Positions 6,904 to 21,870 of a stretch of DNA of 64,000 nt are shown piece after piece (position 1 is the first letter of the stretch; the number at the start of each line of letters is the position of its first letter). The notes beneath the pieces are model-generated. The model was not told the DNA's origin. It saw only the letters and a list, made by a program, of their open reading frames with translations, and did not search any database. The stretch spans positions 1 to 64,000 of the forward strand of contig CAIYOY010000215.1 of assembly GCA_903927905.1 (NCBI GenBank), read 5' to 3'. The position numbers were made by a program, and so were the translations under genes. The stretch is from an uncultured Verrucomicrobiales bacterium. Its GTDB lineage: Bacteria; Verrucomicrobiota; Verrucomicrobiia; Limisphaerales; Palsa-1400.

Positions 6904-8085
6904 ATGGTTTACCTTAACAATTCTTCCTTCGTAGATGGCATTGCGGATTTTCCTCTACCACGATTATTAAAGCGTAAAGACTCAATTGACGATAAATTGC
7001 TTGCTCCTACTGAGTTTTTTGAGAAAGCTTTTGAGAACGAAGAACCCGAAAATATCAATATGGCAGAACGCGAATGGGCTGTCCCAAAATTTTCAAAAGC
7101 AAAAGTGGATAAAGCTGGAACTGATCTTTTTTCGGAGGATTTGTTTTACTCTGGAAACTCATTAGAAATTATTGATAATTGGCGTTCTGCACATAATTAT
7201 CCTTTAAACATTCTTCAAGACGGTTTGCGCAAAAGGGCAAAACCTATTTACAATGACTGCATTATTTCCCAACGAATAAAAAGATTATCTTCGATTACTG
7301 CGAAATTACGCCGATTCCAAAGCATGCGGCTTTCAGTGATGCAGGACATTGGTGGATGTAGGGCTGTATTAATCTCCGTCAAACAAGTTGAAAAACTGGT
7401 TCAAAATTACAAAAAAAGTGACATCAAGCATAAATTGCAGCAGGAAGATGATTATATTAAAAACCCGAAACCTTCTGGATATAGGGGCGTTCACCTTATT
7501 TATCGGTATAACGGAAGGAAATCTGAATACAACGGTTTGAAGATTGAAATACAAATTCGATCTCTTTTCCAACATGCTTGGGCAACTGCGGTGGAAACGG
7601 TGGGAATGTTTATACAACAAGCTTTGAAATCGAGTCAGGGACATCAGGATTGGTTGCGCTTCTTTGCATTGATGGGCACTGCCATTGCTAAACGTGAAAA
7701 AAGCAACCCTGTTCCTGGGACGCCGACCGAAGATTCTTTGCTGAAATCGGAATTAATTGAATATTCAAAAAAACTCGATGTTGAAAACCATCTTCACGCT
7801 TACGGGGAAGCGCTTCAAGAATTAGAAAAACTACAAGATGACGCACATTACTTTCTTCTCACTCTTGACCCCTCAACAAAAAAACTTGAGATCGTTGGGT
7901 ACTCGGATAAAGAGTTGCAAAAAGCGTCTGATGCTTACCTAACAGTTGAAAAGCAAATTAAGGGAAGCAGCAAGGATGCCGTCTTGGTTTCAGTTGATTC
8001 TATTGCTACACTCCGTAAGGCGTATCCGAATTATTTTTTGGATACAAAAATGTTCGCCGACTTGGTTAAAGAAGCAATTGCCTGA
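6904..8085 (+). CDS. RelA/SpoT-domain alarmone synthetase-like protein
   Basis: Stand-alone RelA/SpoT synthetase fold: RIKRLSSI..KL (124-135), QDIGGCRAV (147-155), GYRGVHLIY (192-200) and EIQIRSLFQHAWA (215-227) carry the nucleotide-binding signatures. Such enzymes transfer pyrophosphate to GTP/GDP or, in some toxins, to ATP or tRNA. There is no HD hydrolase domain. A C-terminal region of about 150 residues may be sensory. Family members I know begin near AEREWAVPKFSKAKVDKAG, so Met53 (7060) is a plausible true start. The gene is visibly AT-richer than its neighbours, suggesting separate acquisition as phage cargo. Confidence 0.85.
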   Translation: MVYLNNSSFVDGIADFPLPRLLKRKDSIDDKLLAPTEFFEKAFENEEPENINMAEREWAVPKFSKAKVDKAGTDLFSEDLFYSGNSLEIIDNWRSAHNYPLNILQDGLRKRAKPIYNDCIISQRIKRLSSITAKLRRFQSMRLSVMQDIGGCRAVLISVKQVEKLVQNYKKSDIKHKLQQEDDYIKNPKPSGYRGVHLIYRYNGRKSEYNGLKIEIQIRSLFQHAWATAVETVGMFIQQALKSSQGHQDWLRFFALMGTAIAKREKSNPVPGTPTEDSLLKSELIEYSKKLDVENHLHAYGEALQELEKLQDDAHYFLLTLDPSTKKLEIVGYSDKELQKASDAYLTVEKQIKGSSKDAVLVSVDSIATLRKAYPNYFLDTKMFADLVKEAIA

Positions 8086-12262: not shown

Positions 12263-13351
12263 TCAATTCTTGGCCCAAATAAATCTGCGCTTCAAGCTGT
12301 TAAATCGGTCGTAGCCGATGGCCTTGTCGTGCTGCAAGCGGCCAACAAGGATGCCGGGTGCGATGTTCAAGCCGGCAGCAAAGCAACTGATCTCGGTCCC
12401 GGTAAACACTCCGCGTCTGAGGAAAGCAGCGTACTGGTCCTTTGGGATGAGAAAATCGGCGGCGAAATCGTTGGCGTCTTTTTCCGCATCGTCACCGTCT
12501 TTAAGCCCCTCGACAAAGACGCCGTTTTTGATTTCCTGCAAGACGTGGCGGGCTTCGTGGAAAAAGGTAAACCAGAAATGGTCGTCGGACTTGTAGAGCA
12601 AGCTGAGTTGAATGAGCGCCTTGTCTTTGGTCAGCCAATATGTCGCGCCGCTGACGCGGAGTTTTTTCAACTCCGGGGTGAAAACGAGCGCGACCCCGGC
12701 CTCGGCGCAAAGTTCGCGCATTTGGGGCTGGAACGCGTCCGCATTGGTTTTGGTCAAGGCGCGAATTTTTTTCAGCGCCCCATGAAATTTATCCGCGTCG
12801 AACGGCGCGGTCTGAACCTTTTGGGCGTCGAGTTCGCCTTTGCGCAGCCAAGCCGAGACGATGCCAAGCTCATTGGTGGCCACTTTAGATTTACGGAAGT
12901 TAACGGCAAACTTGGTCCAACATGCTTCCCATAGATCGGGCGTAGCGGTGCCGTAATAGGCCAGGGCCAAGCCGACTTGCTCCTCTTCGCTTTGTCCAGC
13001 AGGGAGCCAGCATTTTTCGATCATCTCTTTAAACGGGATGCGTTTCAGCCAGGAAATCCCGGCCTGAAAAGTCTCCTGCTGTTTTTTCCGGGCGAGAAAT
13101 TCCTGGTAGTTGGCATCAAGATTAAGCCAAAAGGCGGCGGGAGTGCCGAGAGCAGTTTCCAGCTTCACAGCGGTTTCCGCCGTGATGGGGGCGACGCCCT
13201 GAACGATCTGGTTGACGGTCTTACGGCTCAAGCCGACACGATCAGCCAAGTCAATTTGGGTCATGCCCAAGGCTTCGAGCGTCTCGGCGAGAGTGTCGCC
13301 GGGGGGAGTTCGATCCAACGGGGCATAGCGAATGGGAGTTTTTTCAGCCAT
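12263..13351 (-). CDS. HigA-type antitoxin fused to ImmA/IrrE-type metallopeptidase
   Basis: The N-terminal 75 residues are an XRE/HigA helix-turn-helix (MTQIDLADRVGLSRKTVNQI). The C-terminal half carries a zinc-peptidase motif HEARH (265-269) with downstream acidic residues, as in ImmA/IrrE enzymes that cleave repressors. The 362-residue fused form is known from toxin-antitoxin loci. It overlaps the HigB-like gene by 8 bp, so the two are co-translated. It probably represses its own promoter and neutralises the toxin; the peptidase half might relieve that repression on damage or infection (inference). Confidence 0.8.
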   Translation of the reverse strand: MAEKTPIRYAPLDRTPPGDTLAETLEALGMTQIDLADRVGLSRKTVNQIVQGVAPITAETAVKLETALGTPAAFWLNLDANYQEFLARKKQQETFQAGISWLKRIPFKEMIEKCWLPAGQSEEEQVGLALAYYGTATPDLWEACWTKFAVNFRKSKVATNELGIVSAWLRKGELDAQKVQTAPFDADKFHGALKKIRALTKTNADAFQPQMRELCAEAGVALVFTPELKKLRVSGATYWLTKDKALIQLSLLYKSDDHFWFTFFHEARHVLQEIKNGVFVEGLKDGDDAEKDANDFAADFLIPKDQYAAFLRRGVFTGTEISCFAAGLNIAPGILVGRLQHDKAIGYDRFNSLKRRFIWAKN

Positions 13352-13682
13352 GATAGTCTATTATTTCATTAACGGTTATTGCCGTGACGCTTTTCCAGTC
13401 CAGTCCGCCGTCGTCTTTGCAGGGAACGGGGTCGTGCGCGGGGGCAAACAAAAGCCTGTAGGGATGATCCAAGTCCACAGCCAACTGGCCTTTCAGATTA
13501 CCGGTCAACTCGTGACATCGAGCGCCGGGCAAGGACCGCATCATTTCCAGGTTTGTCGCCGCCGCAAGTTCGTCGAGCCTGCGGCGAAGCAATTTTCCGC
13601 GCCTTTCGCCCCATTCCCGCTGGGCACTCTCGATGGTTTCGGAGTGCTTGCGGAACTTCGATTTACGGAAATATACATCCAT
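13344..13682 (-). CDS. HigB-like RelE/ParE-family toxin
   Basis: This 112-residue basic protein has the length and pattern of plasmid-maintenance killer proteins: a helical N-terminus, [24 protein letters not shown], and a C-terminal VNEIIDYH. Family members cleave mRNA at the ribosome or act as related growth inhibitors. It precedes and overlaps its HTH antitoxin gene, which is the higBA order. The pair sits between the Mod-like and Res genes. Confidence 0.75.
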
Positions 13683-13740: not shown

Positions 13741-15042
13741 TCAAACGTCCTGCACGTCGAACATGAGGCGTTTGAACTCGTCCTCGGTGCGGCGGACTTT
13801 CCAGGTCTCGTCGGCCCGTTTTAGGTTTTCAAGGTTGTTGTCGCCGTTAACGTAGATGACGGCGAACTCCAGGTCTTTGGTGTTGTAGCCTTGTTTTTGG
13901 AAAAAGGCGTCGAGGTCGGCGTTATTCTTTTCGGTGACGTTGCGCCAGATGACCAGGACTTTTTCACCGGCGGGATTTTCGCCCTGCACCACTTTGAAGC
14001 CGCGGATGGTGTCCATGTGGGCGACGCGCAAGCCGAGCAAGTATTGTTCCACCCGCGACGTGGCTTCGGCTTCGATGTCGTCCAGGTGCATGATCTCGTT
14101 CTTGATAAAGAAATCGAGTTCGCGCCGGAGAAAGCCGCCGATGTCCTTGTGAATGAAATAATCGAAGGAGTTGCGGGCGGTGTAATCGGCCAGGTGTTTT
14201 TCCAGCAGGGTGCGGTTGGGGTTTTTCTCGGTGGGGCGCAACCCGGAAAGGTGGCCGTAAAAAGGCGCAAATGCAGGAGTGCCAAGCAGGGGCAGGACGG
14301 TTTGGACAGCTTGGGAGTTTAGATCGGCCTGTTTGCGTTTATCGGTGTCGGGGCGGTACTCGAAGCGGATGATGAGTTCGCCGTTAGCTTCCTGCACCGG
14401 CTCGGCGGCAAGAATGAAACGGCGTTCCTGGCCGGTGGCGGCTTTCTTGTTGTCCGCCTCGGTATCGGCCTCCACCAGTTTGAAATGGACGCGGCGCGGC
14501 GATCCGCCGGGGCCGATGTCCCCGAGCCGGAAAGTGTAATCCCGGAGATATTCGCTGGTCTTAATATAGTACTGGTCGGCATTGGCCCAATGGAGTTTCA
14601 CTTCCTCGCCTTCGTAGGGGATGGCATAGACGCCCGCCTTGTAGCGGCGCAAGGCGAGAAAATCGCCGCCCTGATAATAGCGGCGGAAGAAATTGGCGAG
14701 GTCGGAGAAAATTTCGTTTTCGAGTTCGGCGGGATTGGCGTGGGCTTCGATCCGGGCCTGTAATTCTTTGACCTTGGGAATTTGCTCGGCCTGTTCGCGG
14801 GTGAGGCCCATGCCCACGGCAGTGGCGATGGCCTTGGCCTTCTCGGTTTCCAGCGCAGCGCGGTCGCCGGTGTCCACGGCGGCAAGGGTCTGGCGGACCT
14901 GGGGCAGGAGATCGTTTTCCAGAAAGTGGGTGACTTCAACGCGCTTGGCGTTCATCACGCGGTAGATGCCGAAATCGAGGTCGGCCTGGTCGAGCATGAA
15001 AAGCTCGGCCAAGAGTTCTTTAAGTTTTTCGAGATTGGTCAT
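13741..15042 (-). CDS. Mod-like DNA methyltransferase remnant, catalytic core missing
   Basis: The ends match large type III-like adenine methyltransferases: the start ([25 protein letters not shown] split at residues 4-27) and the end ([40 protein letters not shown]). Full-length relatives run to about 1000 residues, with SAM-binding and DPPY-type motifs in the middle. Here 433 residues remain and neither motif is visible. The join lies near residues 323-335 (about 14040-14075), where [11 protein letters not shown] runs straight into [10 protein letters not shown]. The frame is kept, so a non-catalytic protein could still be made. It overlaps the Fic stop by 4 bp. The family comparison is from memory. 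Confidence 0.7.
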
Positions 15043-16238
15043 TGTGCGCCCGTGCTATCTGATTTTTTGTCAGATGTTGGGGCAGCCCGCATGGGAAGGA
15101 AAGCCAGAATTATTTCGCGCTTGGCGCGTATGCCCTCGGGAGTGCGCTCGACCAGATTTAATTTTTCCAATTCGGCCACGTCACGCTGCAAAGTCTTGGG
15201 ACTTTTGGTGGCGTAGGCTTTGGCGAGGCGAGGCGTGGTTTCGGTAATTTTAGCCAGCGGCACGGCGACGGCAAGAGTGCCCAAATCGAGAGCGATATGG
15301 CGCTGGCGGATATCGGACGCCTTCATTTTGTCGCGGAACATTTCATGGACGAAGTTGCGCCAGGCGACGTCCCATTGCTGCTCCCGGACCAGATCAAGCT
15401 GCCCACGCAAACCATCCACCAACCCCTGCACGGCGTAATCAAGGAAAGGAAGGATGTCGCCACCGGATTTACTGGCGTAATCAAGCTGGCGGTAATACTC
15501 CTGCCGGGTGTGATTGTAATGGTTGCTTAAAAGATGGGAGACGGGGGACGGAACGCCGGCGGTGAGCAGGAGTTGGAACTCGACCAAGCGGGCGGTGCGG
15601 CCGTTGCCGTCGCCGAAAGGATGAATCCAAGCGAGGTAAAGATGGGCGAGGACGGCTTTGATAATGGCATAAACAATGGCGTCGGCTTGCGGGGCATGAA
15701 AATCATCGCCATTGAGCCAATCACAAAGTTTCTGGAGAAGGAACTCGCAATCTTCCGCCGGAGCGCCGCGATAACGCAAGACGCCGACGGAATGGGCGCG
15801 AATCTGGCCGGGGACAACTTCCGGTTCGACTTTCAATTTGTCAAGCACAGCGGCATTGAACTCCTTGAGTTTTTCCACATTGAGAGGCACTGGCTGGCTG
15901 GCCTTAAGAAGCTGGCCAATTTTATTGCAGGCACCGAGGACATTTTCAATTTCCTGCTGGAGATATTCCTTGGAAGGAGGGAGTTTGAGGGTCCCCTCCA
16001 AAATCTGGCGAACTTGGTCCTCGGTCAGGGTATTGCCTTCAATGGCGGTGGTCCCCAAAACGCCCTTGGCGAGATAAAGTTTGTGGAGTTCCTGGGCAAC
16101 GGATGGGCGCAAGGGAACGCCAGCAATGTGCTCACACTTCGACCGGGCCTCGCCCAAATTCATCCAAAGCCTTGGCGCGGCGTGCTGTAAATTCACCTGA
16201 AATTTTATCCATGGATGTGTCGTTTCGTATGTCCGCAT
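15039..16238 (-). CDS. Fic-family AMP-transferase
   Basis: The Fic motif HPFGDGNGRTAR (206-217) is complete, so the protein should transfer AMP, or another nucleotide moiety, to a hydroxyl side chain. The inhibitory helix signature [ST]xxxEG is present as TTAIEG (63-68), marking a class II, self-inhibited Fic protein. Residues about 330-385 resemble a winged helix, as in Fic proteins that bind DNA. It starts the Fic-Mod-TA-Res string. The gap at 16239-16348 upstream may hold its promoter. Confidence 0.85.
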   Translation of the reverse strand: MRTYETTHPWIKFQVNLQHAAPRLWMNLGEARSKCEHIAGVPLRPSVAQELHKLYLAKGVLGTTAIEGNTLTEDQVRQILEGTLKLPPSKEYLQQEIENVLGACNKIGQLLKASQPVPLNVEKLKEFNAAVLDKLKVEPEVVPGQIRAHSVGVLRYRGAPAEDCEFLLQKLCDWLNGDDFHAPQADAIVYAIIKAVLAHLYLAWIHPFGDGNGRTARLVEFQLLLTAGVPSPVSHLLSNHYNHTRQEYYRQLDYASKSGGDILPFLDYAVQGLVDGLRGQLDLVREQQWDVAWRNFVHEMFRDKMKASDIRQRHIALDLGTLAVAVPLAKITETTPRLAKAYATKSPKTLQRDVAELEKLNLVERTPEGIRAKREIILAFLPMRAAPTSDKKSDSTGAQ

Positions 16239-16348: not shown

Positions 16349-19339
16349 TTAAATAACTTGCCAGCGAATGGAAAACAAATGCTCGCTGGTGGTGCGCTGA
16401 CTGAGACGTTTTTCCAAGTGGTCAATGAGGGTGTCGCGCCGCTTTTTGATGCTGTCCTCCACGTCGAAGATGCGCTGGCGCTGGGTGCGCTGGGTCTTTT
16501 CCAGTTCGCGGATTTGGTTTTGGAGGGCGTGCTGGTCGTCCATGGTGGCGGCAAGCCGGGTCTGGCGGTTCAAGGTTTTTATCTGAGCCTTGGTGTCGGA
16601 CAATTCTTTTTCAGCGGCCATGACCATATCATCGGCCCAACGCTCCAATCGCTCGCGCTCCGCCTGAAAAATTTTGCTGTTGGTTTCCAGCGAGCGGGCG
16701 ATGGTGGCCTTGGCGTGGCGGGTGGCTTCCTGCTGCAATTTGGCGGGCGGCTGGGCGTCCGTAGGGGTGGCTTGCACGGTGGCATTGCACCGGAAAAGTT
16801 TCTCGCACGTTTCCTGATAAAGCGGATTGCCCTGATCCATGAAGGCTGAAAAGAGCATGTGTTCCTCGCGCTCGAAAGATTCGATGGTGAGTTTTTGCAG
16901 CAGCAACCAACCGGATTGACCCTGCAATGCTTCCACCTCGGCAATGCGGGTGGGGTGGGCGCTAACATTGAAAACGACGGTGGCAACGGGGGCCGCGCAT
17001 TTCCGGCCGGTGTCCAAGACGTGTTCGCCCAAGGGGTGGGAGAGGCGGTAAAGAAATTCGCCGGGGACGTTCGGCTCGGGCTTGGGGATGTCAATGCCAG
17101 CGGGCGAGCGGGATTTCCATACCTCCATGAAGTCGCCGGGTTTGGTTTTGGAAATGAGCTTGTAGCGTCCGAGATGGATTTCCGGCTTTGGCGTGGTGTG
17201 GAGATCGAAGGCGAGCGCGTCGTCGTCGAACTTGGCGCTATCGCGCAGCATGAAACGGCTGAGCGCCCAAAAGATACGGCTGACGCGGTCAAGCTGCACC
17301 CATGTCCGGTCCAGTTGGAATTTCAACCGGGCGTGAACGTCTTCGTCAAAGTGTTCCAACAAGGCACTTTTGGTTTTGTCTATCCGCTCGCGGATGCTGG
17401 CGTCCATTTCGGCCTGGAGTTTTTGGAAGGCCTCGGCGATGGCGTCCTGGGAACGGCAGCTTTGATAGATGGCGAGAATACGTTTCTCAAAATCAACGCC
17501 GGATTCAATGGAGCCAAGGACTTCGTCGGACGCGCCAAAGACGCCGTTAAAGAGGTTGAATTTTTCACCGAGCAATTCCAAAACGCGGCGGTCGGCATCG
17601 TTGCGTTCGTTTAAGAAATTGATGACAACGACATCGTGTTTCTGGCCGTAACGGTGGCAGCGGCCAATACGCTGCTCAATGCGCTGCGGATTCCAGGGCA
17701 AATCGTAATTGATAACGAGCGAGCAGAATTGAAGGTTGACGCCCTCGGAGGCGGCTTCGGTCGCGATCATGATGCTGGCCTGGTCGCGGAAGTTTTCGAT
17801 GATGGCGGTGCGGATGTCCACGGGGCGCGAACCGGAAGCGCGGCCCGTGCCGGCATTGGTGGAAAGCCAGTTCTCGTAAACGGCTTTTGAATCGGGGTCG
17901 GAATTGGTGCCATTGAATAGCACGATCTTCCCGGCATAGCCGTTGCTGGCGAGGAAGGAGCGGAGATATTCCTGGGTGCGGCGCGATTCGGTGAAGATGA
18001 GCGCCTTTTGGCTGGCTCCCATTTTCAGCATCTCGGCAAAGCCGATTTCGAGGGCACTGAGCAAGGAACGGGATTTAGTGTCAATGCCGATGCCCCGCGC
18101 CCAGCCGATGTAGCGGTCAAGCTCGGTGATTTCAGCCTGGAGTTTGACGGGGTCGAGCTTGGCCTTTTCCTCGGCGGGCGGCGGTGTGCCTTCCGGGTTG
18201 TCGGGAAGCTCCAACATCTCATCGAGGTAATCGGTTTCCAGTTCGTCGGCATTGATGAGGGTTTCGACGATGTTTTCCTCGGTCGGCTGGCCGTCGAGCA
18301 TTTTTTGCAAGCGGTCTTTCATCGTTTCCAACGTGCCAGCGATGGCGTGGCTGGAGGAGGCGAGCAACTTGCGCAGAATGAGGGTGGTGAGGGAACGTTG
18401 TTGGACCGGGATGGAAAAGGAATCGTCGCGCAGTAAGAACGCGGAAACGGTCTCGTAGAGCTTATGCTCGTCGTCGGTGGGACGAAACGGGCGCGTGATG
18501 GCGCGGCGCTGGGTGTATTGAATGTATTCGGTGACCTGGTTGCGAAGGGTGCGCTTGGTGAAGCCGGTCAGCCGGGCGCGAAGATCGGCAAGGTTGCTGT
18601 CTTTCCCAACGTATTGAGAGCGGAAGGATGAGACGTCGCCGAAAAGATTTTCGTCAATGAGTGAGGCAAGGCCGAAAAGTTCCATCAGGGAATTTTGCAA
18701 CGGCGTGGCGGTGAGCAGGAGCTTGCGGCGATTCTCCAAGGCCCAGCGAAGGCGCTGGCCCATTTGATTGTTGGGCTTGTAGGCATTGCGGAGTTTGTGG
18801 GCTTCGTCAATGACAACGAGGTTCCAATCAACGGCGCGGACATCGCCCTGCATGGCGCTGGCAAAATTGATCGAAGTGATGACAACGCGGTCGGTCAGGA
18901 ACGGCGCCGGGTTGCCGCCGCGCTGGGCTTTGCGGTAGGCAGTGGCGTCCAGGATGGTGGTTGGGACGTTGAATTTTTCCTCCAATTCCAAGCTCCATTG
19001 CTTGCGGATGGAGGCGGGGCAGATAACGAGAATACGACGACGGCGCTCGGCCCAAAGCTGGCAAAGGATCAATCCGGCTTCGATGGTTTTACCCAAACCG
19101 ACTTCGTCGGCGAGCAGGACGCCTTTGCTGAGCGGCGATTGAAGGGCGAATAAGGCGGCGTCAATCTGGTGGGGGTTCAGGTCAACAGTGGCGTTGAACA
19201 ATGAGGCGGAGAGACGGTCAACATCGGCAGAGGGCCTTTGAAGCGTCAGTTCATGCGCGAAATAGCGGGCGTGATAAGGCGTTATGGTTTCCCCGGTCAC
19301 AGCGGGGAAAGGAATAACGGGAATGAGCGGAAGGCGCAA
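16349..19339 (-). CDS. SNF2-type DEAD/DEAH helicase (defence-associated)
   Basis: The 996-residue protein has the SNF2/HepA layout: DEVGLGKTIEAG (79-89), DEAHKLRN (178-185), LLTATPLQNS, and a C-terminal helicase half ending in RIGRCHRYGQ. The last 150 residues form a charged coiled coil (about 850-960). Such helicases accompany methyltransferase/Res genes in several defence islands, for example DISARM and uncharacterised type III-like clusters. There is no nuclease motif that I can see. It is the first gene of the minus-strand cluster and is separated from the Fic gene by 110 bp. Confidence 0.8.
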   Translation of the reverse strand: MRLPLIPVIPFPAVTGETITPYHARYFAHELTLQRPSADVDRLSASLFNATVDLNPHQIDAALFALQSPLSKGVLLADEVGLGKTIEAGLILCQLWAERRRRILVICPASIRKQWSLELEEKFNVPTTILDATAYRKAQRGGNPAPFLTDRVVITSINFASAMQGDVRAVDWNLVVIDEAHKLRNAYKPNNQMGQRLRWALENRRKLLLTATPLQNSLMELFGLASLIDENLFGDVSSFRSQYVGKDSNLADLRARLTGFTKRTLRNQVTEYIQYTQRRAITRPFRPTDDEHKLYETVSAFLLRDDSFSIPVQQRSLTTLILRKLLASSSHAIAGTLETMKDRLQKMLDGQPTEENIVETLINADELETDYLDEMLELPDNPEGTPPPAEEKAKLDPVKLQAEITELDRYIGWARGIGIDTKSRSLLSALEIGFAEMLKMGASQKALIFTESRRTQEYLRSFLASNGYAGKIVLFNGTNSDPDSKAVYENWLSTNAGTGRASGSRPVDIRTAIIENFRDQASIMIATEAASEGVNLQFCSLVINYDLPWNPQRIEQRIGRCHRYGQKHDVVVINFLNERNDADRRVLELLGEKFNLFNGVFGASDEVLGSIESGVDFEKRILAIYQSCRSQDAIAEAFQKLQAEMDASIRERIDKTKSALLEHFDEDVHARLKFQLDRTWVQLDRVSRIFWALSRFMLRDSAKFDDDALAFDLHTTPKPEIHLGRYKLISKTKPGDFMEVWKSRSPAGIDIPKPEPNVPGEFLYRLSHPLGEHVLDTGRKCAAPVATVVFNVSAHPTRIAEVEALQGQSGWLLLQKLTIESFEREEHMLFSAFMDQGNPLYQETCEKLFRCNATVQATPTDAQPPAKLQQEATRHAKATIARSLETNSKIFQAERERLERWADDMVMAAEKELSDTKAQIKTLNRQTRLAATMDDQHALQNQIRELEKTQRTQRQRIFDVEDSIKKRRDTLIDHLEKRLSQRTTSEHLFSIRWQVI

Positions 19340-19392: not shown

Positions 19393-19608
19393 TTAATGCA
19401 CAGTGGCAATCGCGGGAGAATAATTTATCGAAAAACTTTTTTGAGAGGATGCCGGTTTGCTTGGGCTTGATGCCTTTACCTTCTCTCGAAGGCGCGCCAC
19501 GAAAACTTCCAACTCTTTGCGCTCAGTTGGATTGGCGCATTGCTCTAATTTCTTCTCAAAAAAAGCTAACGCTTGCGACTCCTGGCCTTCAATATATGCA
19601 AAACTCAT
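19393..19608 (-). CDS. Small helical protein coupled to the Ntn hydrolase
   Basis: This 71-residue frame starts 1 bp after the stop of the Ntn-hydrolase gene, which strongly suggests translational coupling. Residues 10-50 are predicted helical with alternating charges (EKKLEQCANPTERKELEVFV). The tail is Ser/Lys-rich. I recognise no family. A partner, regulator or substrate of the Ntn hydrolase is possible. Its base composition is AT-richer than the flanking genes, like that of its neighbour. Confidence 0.55.
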   Translation of the reverse strand: MSFAYIEGQESQALAFFEKKLEQCANPTERKELEVFVARLREKVKASSPSKPASSQKSFSINYSPAIATVH

Positions 19609-19609
19609 A

Positions 19610-20413
19610 TTATCTATCGAGTAGGCGATACAATTCTTTTTGCGCTATCCATTTAAATCCACCTCTATGGGTAACAAGCGCAACATCAATCTCGCCCCCA
19701 ACATTCGGCAACTGACCAGAAAATCTTTGATAATCTGATGTTGTTCGTATCAAAAACTTCGCATAATCAATCGCATCTTGCAACGAAAAGGCTTCAAAAT
19801 TTGCTCCAGCATTACCATTTGGCCAAAGAAGTGCTACCACCGAAGTGTCACCAGTACAAAACGCTGCGCCACTTTGCTTTTCAACTTTAGATTTTTTCCC
19901 TATGCTAAGACCATAAATCACAGCCACCGGTTCTCCATTAGAGTCTTTTGCAAATCCAGCTAATTGAAAACCAAATGGGTAATAAGTGTCTGGCAACAAT
20001 GCTTCGTTTACGCTTCCCTTCTTCCATTCCAACCGCAATTGCTTATCGAAATATAATTTAATTTCCTCAGCGATAACAGCCAGATGATCATCTCCATCTT
20101 TGGAAGGTTCGGGAAGCTTGGCATTTAAATCCAAAACGTGATTATACATGCTTCTGCTATTCACAAACGCAGAACCGTATATTGCCAGCGCGAACTTTCC
20201 TTTAATATCAAATAATTTTTGTGCGTATGGAAATGTTGAACTTGGCACTGACACTGGCGGCACTTGGACATCCTTGATTTCTACCTGATCAGAACATTTT
20301 GGACAAACCCCGGCCACATTCATTTTTTGAGTGATTGGCCGCGTTAACGTCATGAGGCTATCGGATGCAATGACGATACCATCAGGAACTCGCAGTGAAA
20401 CATTTAAGGTCAT
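19610..20413 (-). CDS. Proteasome beta-like Ntn hydrolase
   Basis: After loss of Met1 the chain would begin with Thr, followed by VSLRVPDGIVIASDS. The aspartate then falls at mature position 17, as in proteasome beta subunits and their Anbu/HslV relatives. A lysine in AQKLFDI (Lys66) is a good candidate for the catalytic lysine, displaced by an insertion with one CPKC knuckle (37-40). KFALAIYGSA continues the beta-fold pattern. A Thr-nucleophile amidase or protease is therefore predicted. It is cytoplasmic, AT-rich, and lies between a defence cluster and an integrase. No cognate ATPase gene is near. Confidence 0.7.
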   Translation of the reverse strand: MTLNVSLRVPDGIVIASDSLMTLTRPITQKMNVAGVCPKCSDQVEIKDVQVPPVSVPSSTFPYAQKLFDIKGKFALAIYGSAFVNSRSMYNHVLDLNAKLPEPSKDGDDHLAVIAEEIKLYFDKQLRLEWKKGSVNEALLPDTYYPFGFQLAGFAKDSNGEPVAVIYGLSIGKKSKVEKQSGAAFCTGDTSVVALLWPNGNAGANFEAFSLQDAIDYAKFLIRTTSDYQRFSGQLPNVGGEIDVALVTHRGGFKWIAQKELYRLLDR

Positions 20414-20475: not shown

Positions 20476-21870
20476 TCACGCAGCGACTTGGAGGTCTCTT
20501 GTTGCTGTTGTGAGTTTGGCGATCGGCCCTTTGACTGTTTTGGGAGTGATGGCCCAAAATTCTTTGGCGTCGGCTTCCTTCACCAAACCACGGTAATGCT
20601 TATGCAGAATGTTGGGGGAGTTGCCGGCCCATGTGGCGGCTTCACCTTCGTGTTTGTTCGTGGCCAGAAACATGGAGACGGCGGTGTGGCGCATGTAATC
20701 CTGCACCCACGGGCGGAGTTTTTCGACTGCCACGGCTTTTTCGGTACGTTTGCCTTTTTTGGCTGACGCGACTGTCTCGGCGGTTTTGCTGGCTTTCTTA
20801 TTGGCGGCAGCGGCTTCGCGTTTCTCTTGCTCGGCTTCTTCGTTGCCATATCCGGCGGCTTTTTTGACGCGGCCAAAGTGACGCGCAAAGGCGGCTGGAA
20901 CGAACGCTGGCTTCTTGGTGGCCATAGGGGTGAGCCAGTCAAGGGCGTTGTCGGAAAGCTTCACAATGCGGCGCTGGCGCGTCTTTGCCATGCTGCCGTC
21001 GAGGGTGATGGTCTTTTCTTCAAGGTCTATCCGGTCCCAGGTGAGGCGGGCGACTTCGGCGGGGCGGAGTCCGGCAAAGAGACTGATGGCGACGTAGGGC
21101 AAGAGGACGCCGTCGTTGTATTCGCGGGCGGCGGACAGTAGGCGGCGGCAATCCTGCACGGCAAGGACGCTCGGCTCGTGGCTGTCGGTGGCGGGCTTGT
21201 CCACGGTGAGCATGGGGTTGGTGTCGGTGTATTTGCGGCGGAGGCACCAATTGAGGAAATTGGACCCGGCCAGGCGGTTGTTGATCTGTGTGCGCGGCCC
21301 GGTGTTGTCGCGCATGACGAAATCACGGCAATCGTCGGTGGTGAGGTCGGAGACGTTCTTGGCGCCATAGAGGCGGTGGAACATGCCAAGGCGACCCTTG
21401 AGGTTGCGGATGGTGTCGGGGCGGCGGTTCTGCTTCTCGCGCTCGGCGACAAAGAGGTCGTAGGCAGCTAGGACGGTGATTTTGTTGATCGGCTCGCGGT
21501 AGTTGGCAATAAATTGTTGAATGCCGAAGAGCAAGGATTTGTCGTGCAGTTTGGGATGCGCTTTGAGCAGGGCCTTTGCGCTCTCGGCGTCTTTGATATC
21601 GTCGTCGGTCAGGCGGGTGGCCTTCATGCGGGTGACGATGTCGGTGTGGAAGTTGGCGACCTCAATATCTAGGTTGCCTTTGGCGGCGATGGCTTCTTCC
21701 TGGGTCTTGTAATTCTCGCGGACGCGGGTGCCGTCGGCCTTGTAACCGGCCACGCGGAAAACGGAGTCGCCGCTGGGGTTGGTGAAGTGGTTTATGTGAA
21801 AACGCTCCTTGGCGGCGCGTTTAGCTTTGGTCTTGGTTTTGGTTTTGCCGGTGGTTGCCGTTGTTTTCAT
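20476..21870 (-). CDS. int: Tyrosine recombinase (integrase)
   Basis: The catalytic set is visible: Arg269 (AGLRPAEVARLTW), Arg394-His395 (YMRHTAV), Trp414 (ATWAGNSP) and nucleophile Tyr426 (LHKHYRG). An SAM-like core-binding domain precedes it, and the N-terminus is basic. A Lys/Ala/Glu-rich insert of about 45 residues (341-386) interrupts the catalytic domain. The start lies about 90 bp from a tRNA-Ser 3' end, the expected attachment site, so this enzyme very likely integrated the element. A tandem 12-bp repeat directly upstream may be a binding site. Confidence 0.92.
   Translation of the reverse strand: MKTTATTGKTKTKTKAKRAAKERFHINHFTNPSGDSVFRVAGYKADGTRVRENYKTQEEAIAAKGNLDIEVANFHTDIVTRMKATRLTDDDIKDAESAKALLKAHPKLHDKSLLFGIQQFIANYREPINKITVLAAYDLFVAEREKQNRRPDTIRNLKGRLGMFHRLYGAKNVSDLTTDDCRDFVMRDNTGPRTQINNRLAGSNFLNWCLRRKYTDTNPMLTVDKPATDSHEPSVLAVQDCRRLLSAAREYNDGVLLPYVAISLFAGLRPAEVARLTWDRIDLEEKTITLDGSMAKTRQRRIVKLSDNALDWLTPMATKKPAFVPAAFARHFGRVKKAAGYGNEEAEQEKREAAAANKKASKTAETVASAKKGKRTEKAVAVEKLRPWVQDYMRHTAVSMFLATNKHEGEAATWAGNSPNILHKHYRGLVKEADAKEFWAITPKTVKGPIAKLTTATRDLQVAA

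Follow-up and report, generated by a model that had tools for sequence, protein, structure and literature searches.

A proteasome-like threonine hydrolase gene and its coupled micro-partner gene as foreign cargo in Verrucomicrobiota

What is the role of a proteasome-like hydrolase which has no cognate ATPase next to it and is followed, after a single base, by a gene of only 71 codons? The question is raised by two genes on the reverse strand of contig CAIYOY010000215.1 of an uncultured Verrucomicrobiales bacterium. The window analysed here is the whole stretch of 64,000 nucleotides from this contig. A first-pass annotation, made from the sequence alone, described the genes as a separately acquired and undescribed Ntn hydrolase with a coupled small partner, serving as a proteolytic defence or toxin pair. 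The best explanation, with a probability of about 0.6, is a mobile two-gene module composed of a Thr hydrolase and a dedicated micro-protein ligand.

The hydrolase and its predicted active site

The two reading frames were confirmed at the positions and sizes first reported (267 and 71 aa, one base apart). The features of the pair and its flanks are as follows.

16349..19339 (-), DrmD-like SNF2 helicase, downstream of the pair with a 53 bp gap (PADLOC DrmD, E 5.8e-202)
19393..19608 (-), micro-partner, 71 aa; homologs directly behind the hydrolase in loci L002, L013 and L120; under purifying selection
19610..20413 (-), proteasome-like Thr-Ntn hydrolase, 267 aa; homologs at 58-65% identity, AF2 topology and Foldseek
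19670..19702 (-), C-terminal signature VGGEIDVALVT, residues 238-248; hhalign of the subfamily against the PMI-4-like profile
20174..20176 (-), Gly80, equivalent of the oxyanion-hole Gly47; invariant in alignment A3
20216..20218 (-), Lys66 (Met numbering), equivalent of Lys33; invariant in alignments A4 and A8
20228..20341 (-), insertion of ~38 residues between the Asp17 and Lys33 strands; alignments and AF2 beta-hairpin
20294..20305 (-), CPKC (CxxC) half-knuckle, residues 37-40; CxxC conserved in close homologs
20360..20362 (-), Asp18, equivalent of Asp17; invariant in alignments A4 and A8
20408..20410 (-), nucleophile Thr, residue 2 (Thr1 minus Met); conserved
20476..21870 (-), tyrosine integrase, upstream of the pair with a 62 bp gap (PF00589, E 2.8e-9; phrog_1 integrase)

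The product of 19610-20413(-) is a proteasome-type Thr-Ntn hydrolase, a putative peptidase or ligase. The protein starts with MTLNVSLRVPDGIVIASDS, and removal of Met would free Thr1 and leave Asp at position 17. Every close homolog whose N-terminus is intact keeps the Thr nucleophile, and so do 19 of 19 aligned phage relatives. The triad of T2, D18 and K66, corresponding to Thr1, Asp17 and Lys33 of proteasome-like Ntn hydrolases, is invariant in A4 and A8. The candidate Lys of the first-pass annotation is K66, and the invariant G80 lies 14 residues further on, matching the Lys33-Gly47 spacing of proteasome beta subunits. The numbering of both residues is displaced because the CPKC-bearing insertion of ~38 residues precedes them. 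A profile of the larger, PMI-4-like relatives described below also places the Lys66-equivalent Lys on Lys33 of the Thermoplasma acidophilum beta subunit. Equivalents of proteasome Asp166 and Ser169 were not evident in the hydrolase. The protein is expected to be active as an enzyme.

The CPKC insertion was likewise recognised correctly at the outset, and its CxxC is common to the window protein, L002, L013 and the broken copy in L120. The phage relatives lack the insertion and so, for the most part, do the relatives L004-L007; AF2 predicts it as a beta-hairpin. Only two Cys are conserved, so for this hairpin to bind zinc another half-site would be required, for example from another subunit. 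Two of these Ntn relatives, L005 and L006, adjoin hisC-like genes and keep Ser1 and Asp17 while the Lys33 position is occupied by Asn. They are probably altered or inactive, judging from this loss, so the wider group appears to include such members.

Scans of both proteins with Pfam, NCBIfam and PADLOC gave nothing above curated cut-offs, and phmmer of the single hydrolase sequence against the PDB gave no match. The fold was approached by structure prediction. An AF2 model from two sequences had a pLDDT of 45.7, and its top 15 Foldseek matches in the PDB were all proteasome subunits. With the 21 sequences of the full-length alignment A8 as input, the mean pLDDT rose to 59.5, and strands and helices followed one another as in proteasome beta subunits. 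Every one of the 46 PDB matches at E<=0.001 was a proteasome subunit. TM-scores to these subunits were low, about 0.18-0.25, and the predicted Ntn alpha-beta-beta-alpha sandwich is seen only at the level of topology, and not of packing, in this low-confidence model. As AF2 confidence is modest, the assignment of the fold rests on motifs together with topology. Searched against the whole PDB, the profile of the larger relatives ranked the T. acidophilum beta subunit first (E 0.0014), with Thr1 placed on Thr1. The window subfamily aligned to this profile by hhalign over the VGGEIDVALVT region (prob 96.3, E 1.9e-9), a profile comparison by which it is homologous to the larger relatives.

HslV, Anbu and BPH show the same catalytic pattern and, by prediction, a similar fold. 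The window protein differs from them in the extra insertion, in having no HslU nearby and in giving no match to the Pfam Proteasome family PF00227, which covers proteasome subunits, HslV, Anbu and BPH. Its N-terminus can be aligned to that of HslV, and hhalign to E. coli HslV was not significant (prob 7%). No PF00227 protein was detected in the 81%-complete source genome.

The micro-partner and the origin of the pair

The hydrolase gene and the micro-gene form a true pair, as first claimed. The spacing between them is +1, -4 and 0 nt in the three intact copies, which suggests coupled translation; a conserved and coupled gene pair of this kind is also a feature of toxin-antitoxin systems. A partner homolog lies directly behind the hydrolase in these three copies and in genome G744, making four Verrucomicrobiota genomes with the same gene order. 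Between intact homologous pairs, pN was 0.26-0.28 and pS 0.82-0.89 for the hydrolase, compared with 0.35-0.51 and 0.84-0.96 for the micro-partner, synonymous sites being saturated in both genes (pS 0.82-0.96). Each of the two is a genuine gene kept by purifying selection. The partner evolves faster (30-49% identity vs 58-65% for the enzyme), and its conservation is mainly in the N-terminal 45 residues. Judging by sequence, it probably consists of two helices and a Ser/Pro-rich tail.

That the small frame is a chance reading frame, and that no module exists, is rejected as hardly credible. Such a reading draws on the shortness of the frame and on its lack of any family match. Against it, four genomes conserve the frame, pN is well below pS in the intact pairs, 1000 of 1000 shuffles were beaten in every pair, and analogous frames follow 30 of 30 relatives.

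The close subfamily is rare. A scan of 85,000 species genomes gave only L002, at 64% identity, in the Verrucomicrobiota MAG REEB211 (genome G613); the scan was pattern-limited and missed L013, and thus does not show absence elsewhere. Within the order, L013 (58%) and, in G612, a remnant of the N-terminal part were found by whole-genome searches; with the window's own genome and the remnant counted, the subfamily is present in 4 of 320 genomes. G744, from another family of the class, carries a broken hydrolase copy with a disrupted start region and an internal TGA. At this locus (L120, 7700-8900) the partner gene is intact. The window subfamily gave no match in plasmid, phage or IMG/VR searches, and neither did the L004 and L005/L006 types in IMG/VR. 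The CxxC subfamily has so far been seen only in Verrucomicrobiota.

The pair is recently acquired foreign cargo, in line with the separate acquisition proposed at first. The GC content is 41% for the hydrolase and 44% for the partner, compared with 55-59% for most neighbours, and GC3 is 0.34 and 0.43 against 0.62-0.74 in neighbouring genes. Two of the three intact copies are AT-rich. In G613, ilvN and ilvC are separated by ~1.2 kb which hold nothing but the pair; in two congeners this gap measures only a few tens of base pairs. No repeats marking insert edges were found flanking the pair. The tyrosine integrase upstream is the likely carrier. A split and distant Ntn relative in L121 (6447-7841) lies directly behind a tRNA-Pro gene, a position that suggests tRNA-targeted islands as carriers.

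An ordinary self-assembling housekeeping peptidase, similar to BPH or Anbu, which happened to move is quite improbable in view of the patchy distribution: close relatives occur in 4 of 320 genomes of the order, one of these a remnant, AT-rich copies make up two of the three intact ones, and broken copies exist. It would account for the shared catalytic residues and the lack of an ATPase, BPH and Anbu being likewise without a known unfoldase according to Fuchs, Alva and Lupas 2021 (PMC8665760).

The AT-rich genes do lie between a helicase of defence type and an integrase, as initially noted, and the DISARM DrmD-type and type III restriction genes adjoin the pair directly, yet they form a separate system. 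The three related loci L095, L096 and L097 have the helicase with Mod, and in two cases also Res, without the pair, and membership of the pair in this DISARM/type III system was rejected. Conversely, no DISARM or type III restriction-modification genes are adjacent to the pairs in L002, L013 and L120. The pair is a passenger beside the helicase system, since L095-L097 carry the helicase without it.

Several neighbours in the window are of separate interest. The type III Mod-like protein at 13741-15042 (433 aa) aligns only to both ends of the 1031-aa Mod of L095 and L097, and the central catalytic part is missing. Within the same helicase/Mod/Res run are found a HigB/HigA-like pair (12263-13682; PD-Lambda-2_B-like, E 9e-32) and a Fic protein (15039-16238; SoFic-like, E 1e-54). 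An AT-rich gene (39% GC) with a RelA_SpoT domain is situated at 6904-8085 amid prophage head genes and corresponds to PADLOC candidate PDC-S33 (E 3e-121); it is a second foreign cargo gene.

Larger phage relatives and the recurring layout

The C-terminal signature of the phage family phrog_5990 was matched weakly by the window protein (E 1e-3), and the micro-partner layout is common to both. Members of phrog_5990, which L007 matches over its full length, are of about 400-450 aa and were found in 53 IMG/VR loci, 13 phage records and 10 plasmid records. They are common in prophages, satellite phages and plasmids. With about 430 aa, large inserts and no CxxC insertion, the family is only a distant relative of the window protein. 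In the source genome phrog_5990 gave no match, and the controls were silent as well.

Fuchs et al. 2021 (PMC8665760) catalogue 22 new proteasome homologs, some of them with insertions, and give no genomic context that suggests a function. Among these, PMI-4 occurs in phages. With its large internal extra segments and phage hosts phrog_5990 resembles PMI-4 as described there, and it is probably the same group, an assignment based on size, insert pattern and hosts rather than on PMI-4 sequences. The PMI homologs, and PMI-4 especially, share with the window protein the Thr1/Asp17/Lys33 core without an AAA+ partner. The window protein differs from PMI-4 by its CxxC insertion between Asp17 and Lys33 and by its coupled partner. 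The PMI-4 inserts (after H1/H2 and between H3/H4) are absent from it in A8, and it has 267 aa compared with about 430. The pair is undescribed in respect of the CxxC subfamily and the micro-partner, whereas the class of insertion-bearing proteasome homologs was already known from Fuchs et al. Micro-partners are not mentioned in the parts of that paper covered here.

The layout recurs in the phage relatives. An ATG frame of 35-75 aa was counted on the same strand with its start at -45 to +30 nt from the stop, where sufficient downstream sequence existed, and the other long ORFs of the same loci served as controls (n=108). Such a frame directly follows all 30 non-redundant PMI-4-like phage relatives and 17 of the 108 control ORFs (Fisher p 1.4e-18). 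In a second test, which used a crude gene caller, the counts were 16/25 vs 13/75 (p 2e-5). These p-values overstate certainty, since related loci are not fully independent and the windowed count includes chance ORFs; the contrast is still large. Short coding sequences behind the Ntn gene were observed in Streptococcus satellite phages (55 and 58 aa), in a Providencia phage (58 aa), in a Porphyromonas phage (55 aa) and on an E. faecium plasmid (56 aa). Several phage and plasmid micro-partners had been annotated as CDS by the depositors, and pN was below pS in nearly all testable phage pairs.

Comparison of 33 partners gave about 20 sequence clusters with no detectable common ancestry. The partners of L016 and L122 are related to each other, and a motif seemingly shared between them and the L030 partner was not significant by shuffling. 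As the partners of different clades are not demonstrably homologous, one role shared by all of them can only be inferred. The combination of a proteasome homolog and a micro-partner nevertheless looks like a general module, and this layout across phages and other mobile elements is not described in the searchable open-access literature.

Some positions of the larger relatives may be recorded here. In the Streptococcus satellite phages L102 (9274-10653) and L109 (8517-9886) the Ntn gene and micro-gene are the last two genes, opposite the integrase end. On the rhizobial plasmids L108, L111, L112 and L113, PMI-4-like Ntn genes are near a Multi_ubiq/Prok-E2_E protein and a ThiF E1; a ClpP-like protease and DUF6527 are also present in three of these ubiquitin-type cassettes, and two different gene orders occur.

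Possible roles of the micro-partner

In the preferred reading, the first gene would encode an N-terminal-threonine, proteasome-like hydrolase working without a dedicated AAA+ unfoldase, and the second, translationally coupled gene a micro-protein acting as its dedicated ligand. The micro-protein may dock on the hydrolase, close to its active site and its CxxC insertion, where it would be an inhibitor or regulator, or a protein which is cut or ligated; a cofactor is also conceivable. A binding partner fits the coupled translation, the rapid yet constrained evolution of the micro-protein and the occurrence of a single partner type in each enzyme clade. The two proteins presumably bind each other, the small one controlling or feeding the large one. 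The module would be an accessory trait for the mobile element or the host and not a housekeeping function. Most likely, then, the hydrolase has in the micro-protein a regulator or substrate of its own, carried on mobile accessory DNA.

A more specific version, toxin-antitoxin or abortive infection, takes the hydrolase as a protease toxin, the micro-protein as its inhibitor and phage infection as the event that releases the enzyme. The integrase-side position within a defence island is consistent with it, as are the accessory positions of the relatives (last genes of Streptococcus satellite phages, after lysin, near repressors). Degraded loci point the same way: a broken hydrolase with an intact partner in G744, and an N-terminal remnant alone in G612; a single intact partner beside a single broken gene is however anecdotal. 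Neither protein has a PADLOC match, genes of defence families seldom occur around the phage relatives, and the enzyme gene precedes its partner, although in toxin-antitoxin modules the antitoxin gene more often leads. The survey of neighbourhoods also goes mostly against the defence setting first proposed: besides the three related genomes with the helicase system and no pair, the L002 pair is in the housekeeping ilvN-ilvC operon without defence genes, and another copy adjoins a transporter. L013, flanked by the PADLOC candidates PDC-S05 (ORF6N) and PDC-M63A, does point to defence, a link suggestive at best. No literature linking PMI homologs to defence was found in searchable open-access sources. 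A defence or toxin-antitoxin role for the pair is a tentative option, less likely than not as matters stand.

Connectase offers another comparison. It is also proteasome-like and without an unfoldase, and carries extra sequence between the strands of Asp17 and Lys33. Going by Fuchs et al. (PMC8665760), the insertions of connectase and PMI-5/6 probably lie on this stretch. Since the specificity lid of connectase would sit at the same place, selection of substrates by the insertion of the window protein is a reasonable suggestion by analogy. A connectase-like transpeptidase or ligase, or a processing peptidase, would have the micro-protein as substrate and the insertion as specificity lid. The place of the insertion, the lack of an unfoldase nearby and a short partner with a flexible Ser/Pro-rich tail, conserved mainly in its first 45 residues, would suit this role. 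However, connectase is an archaeal monomer whose insertion consists of two helices and which has lost H1/H2, whereas in the window protein a CxxC hairpin and H1/H2 are predicted, and the partner families have no detectable shared sequence and therefore no common cleavage motif. This reading is rather doubtful.

Returning to the module of hydrolase and dedicated ligand, the widest interpretation, speculative at present and improbable in its full form, is a large and so far unrecognised class of mobile-element modules, joined to a bacterial ubiquitin-conjugation cassette on rhizobial plasmids. Each module would pair a diverging Thr-protease with a micro-protein serving as its specific inhibitor or its substrate, for use in conflicts between phages or between phage and host. 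Two things are new, namely a CxxC subfamily of proteasome homologs and a micro-partner layout extending to a widespread phage group. Through a dedicated and coupled micro-partner, at least two groups of the proteasome homologs of Fuchs et al. become open to study: there is a defined complex, a defined gene pair and a choice among inhibitor, substrate and cofactor that can be put to the test. The accessory positions in satellite phages and prophages make a role in phage competition directly testable.
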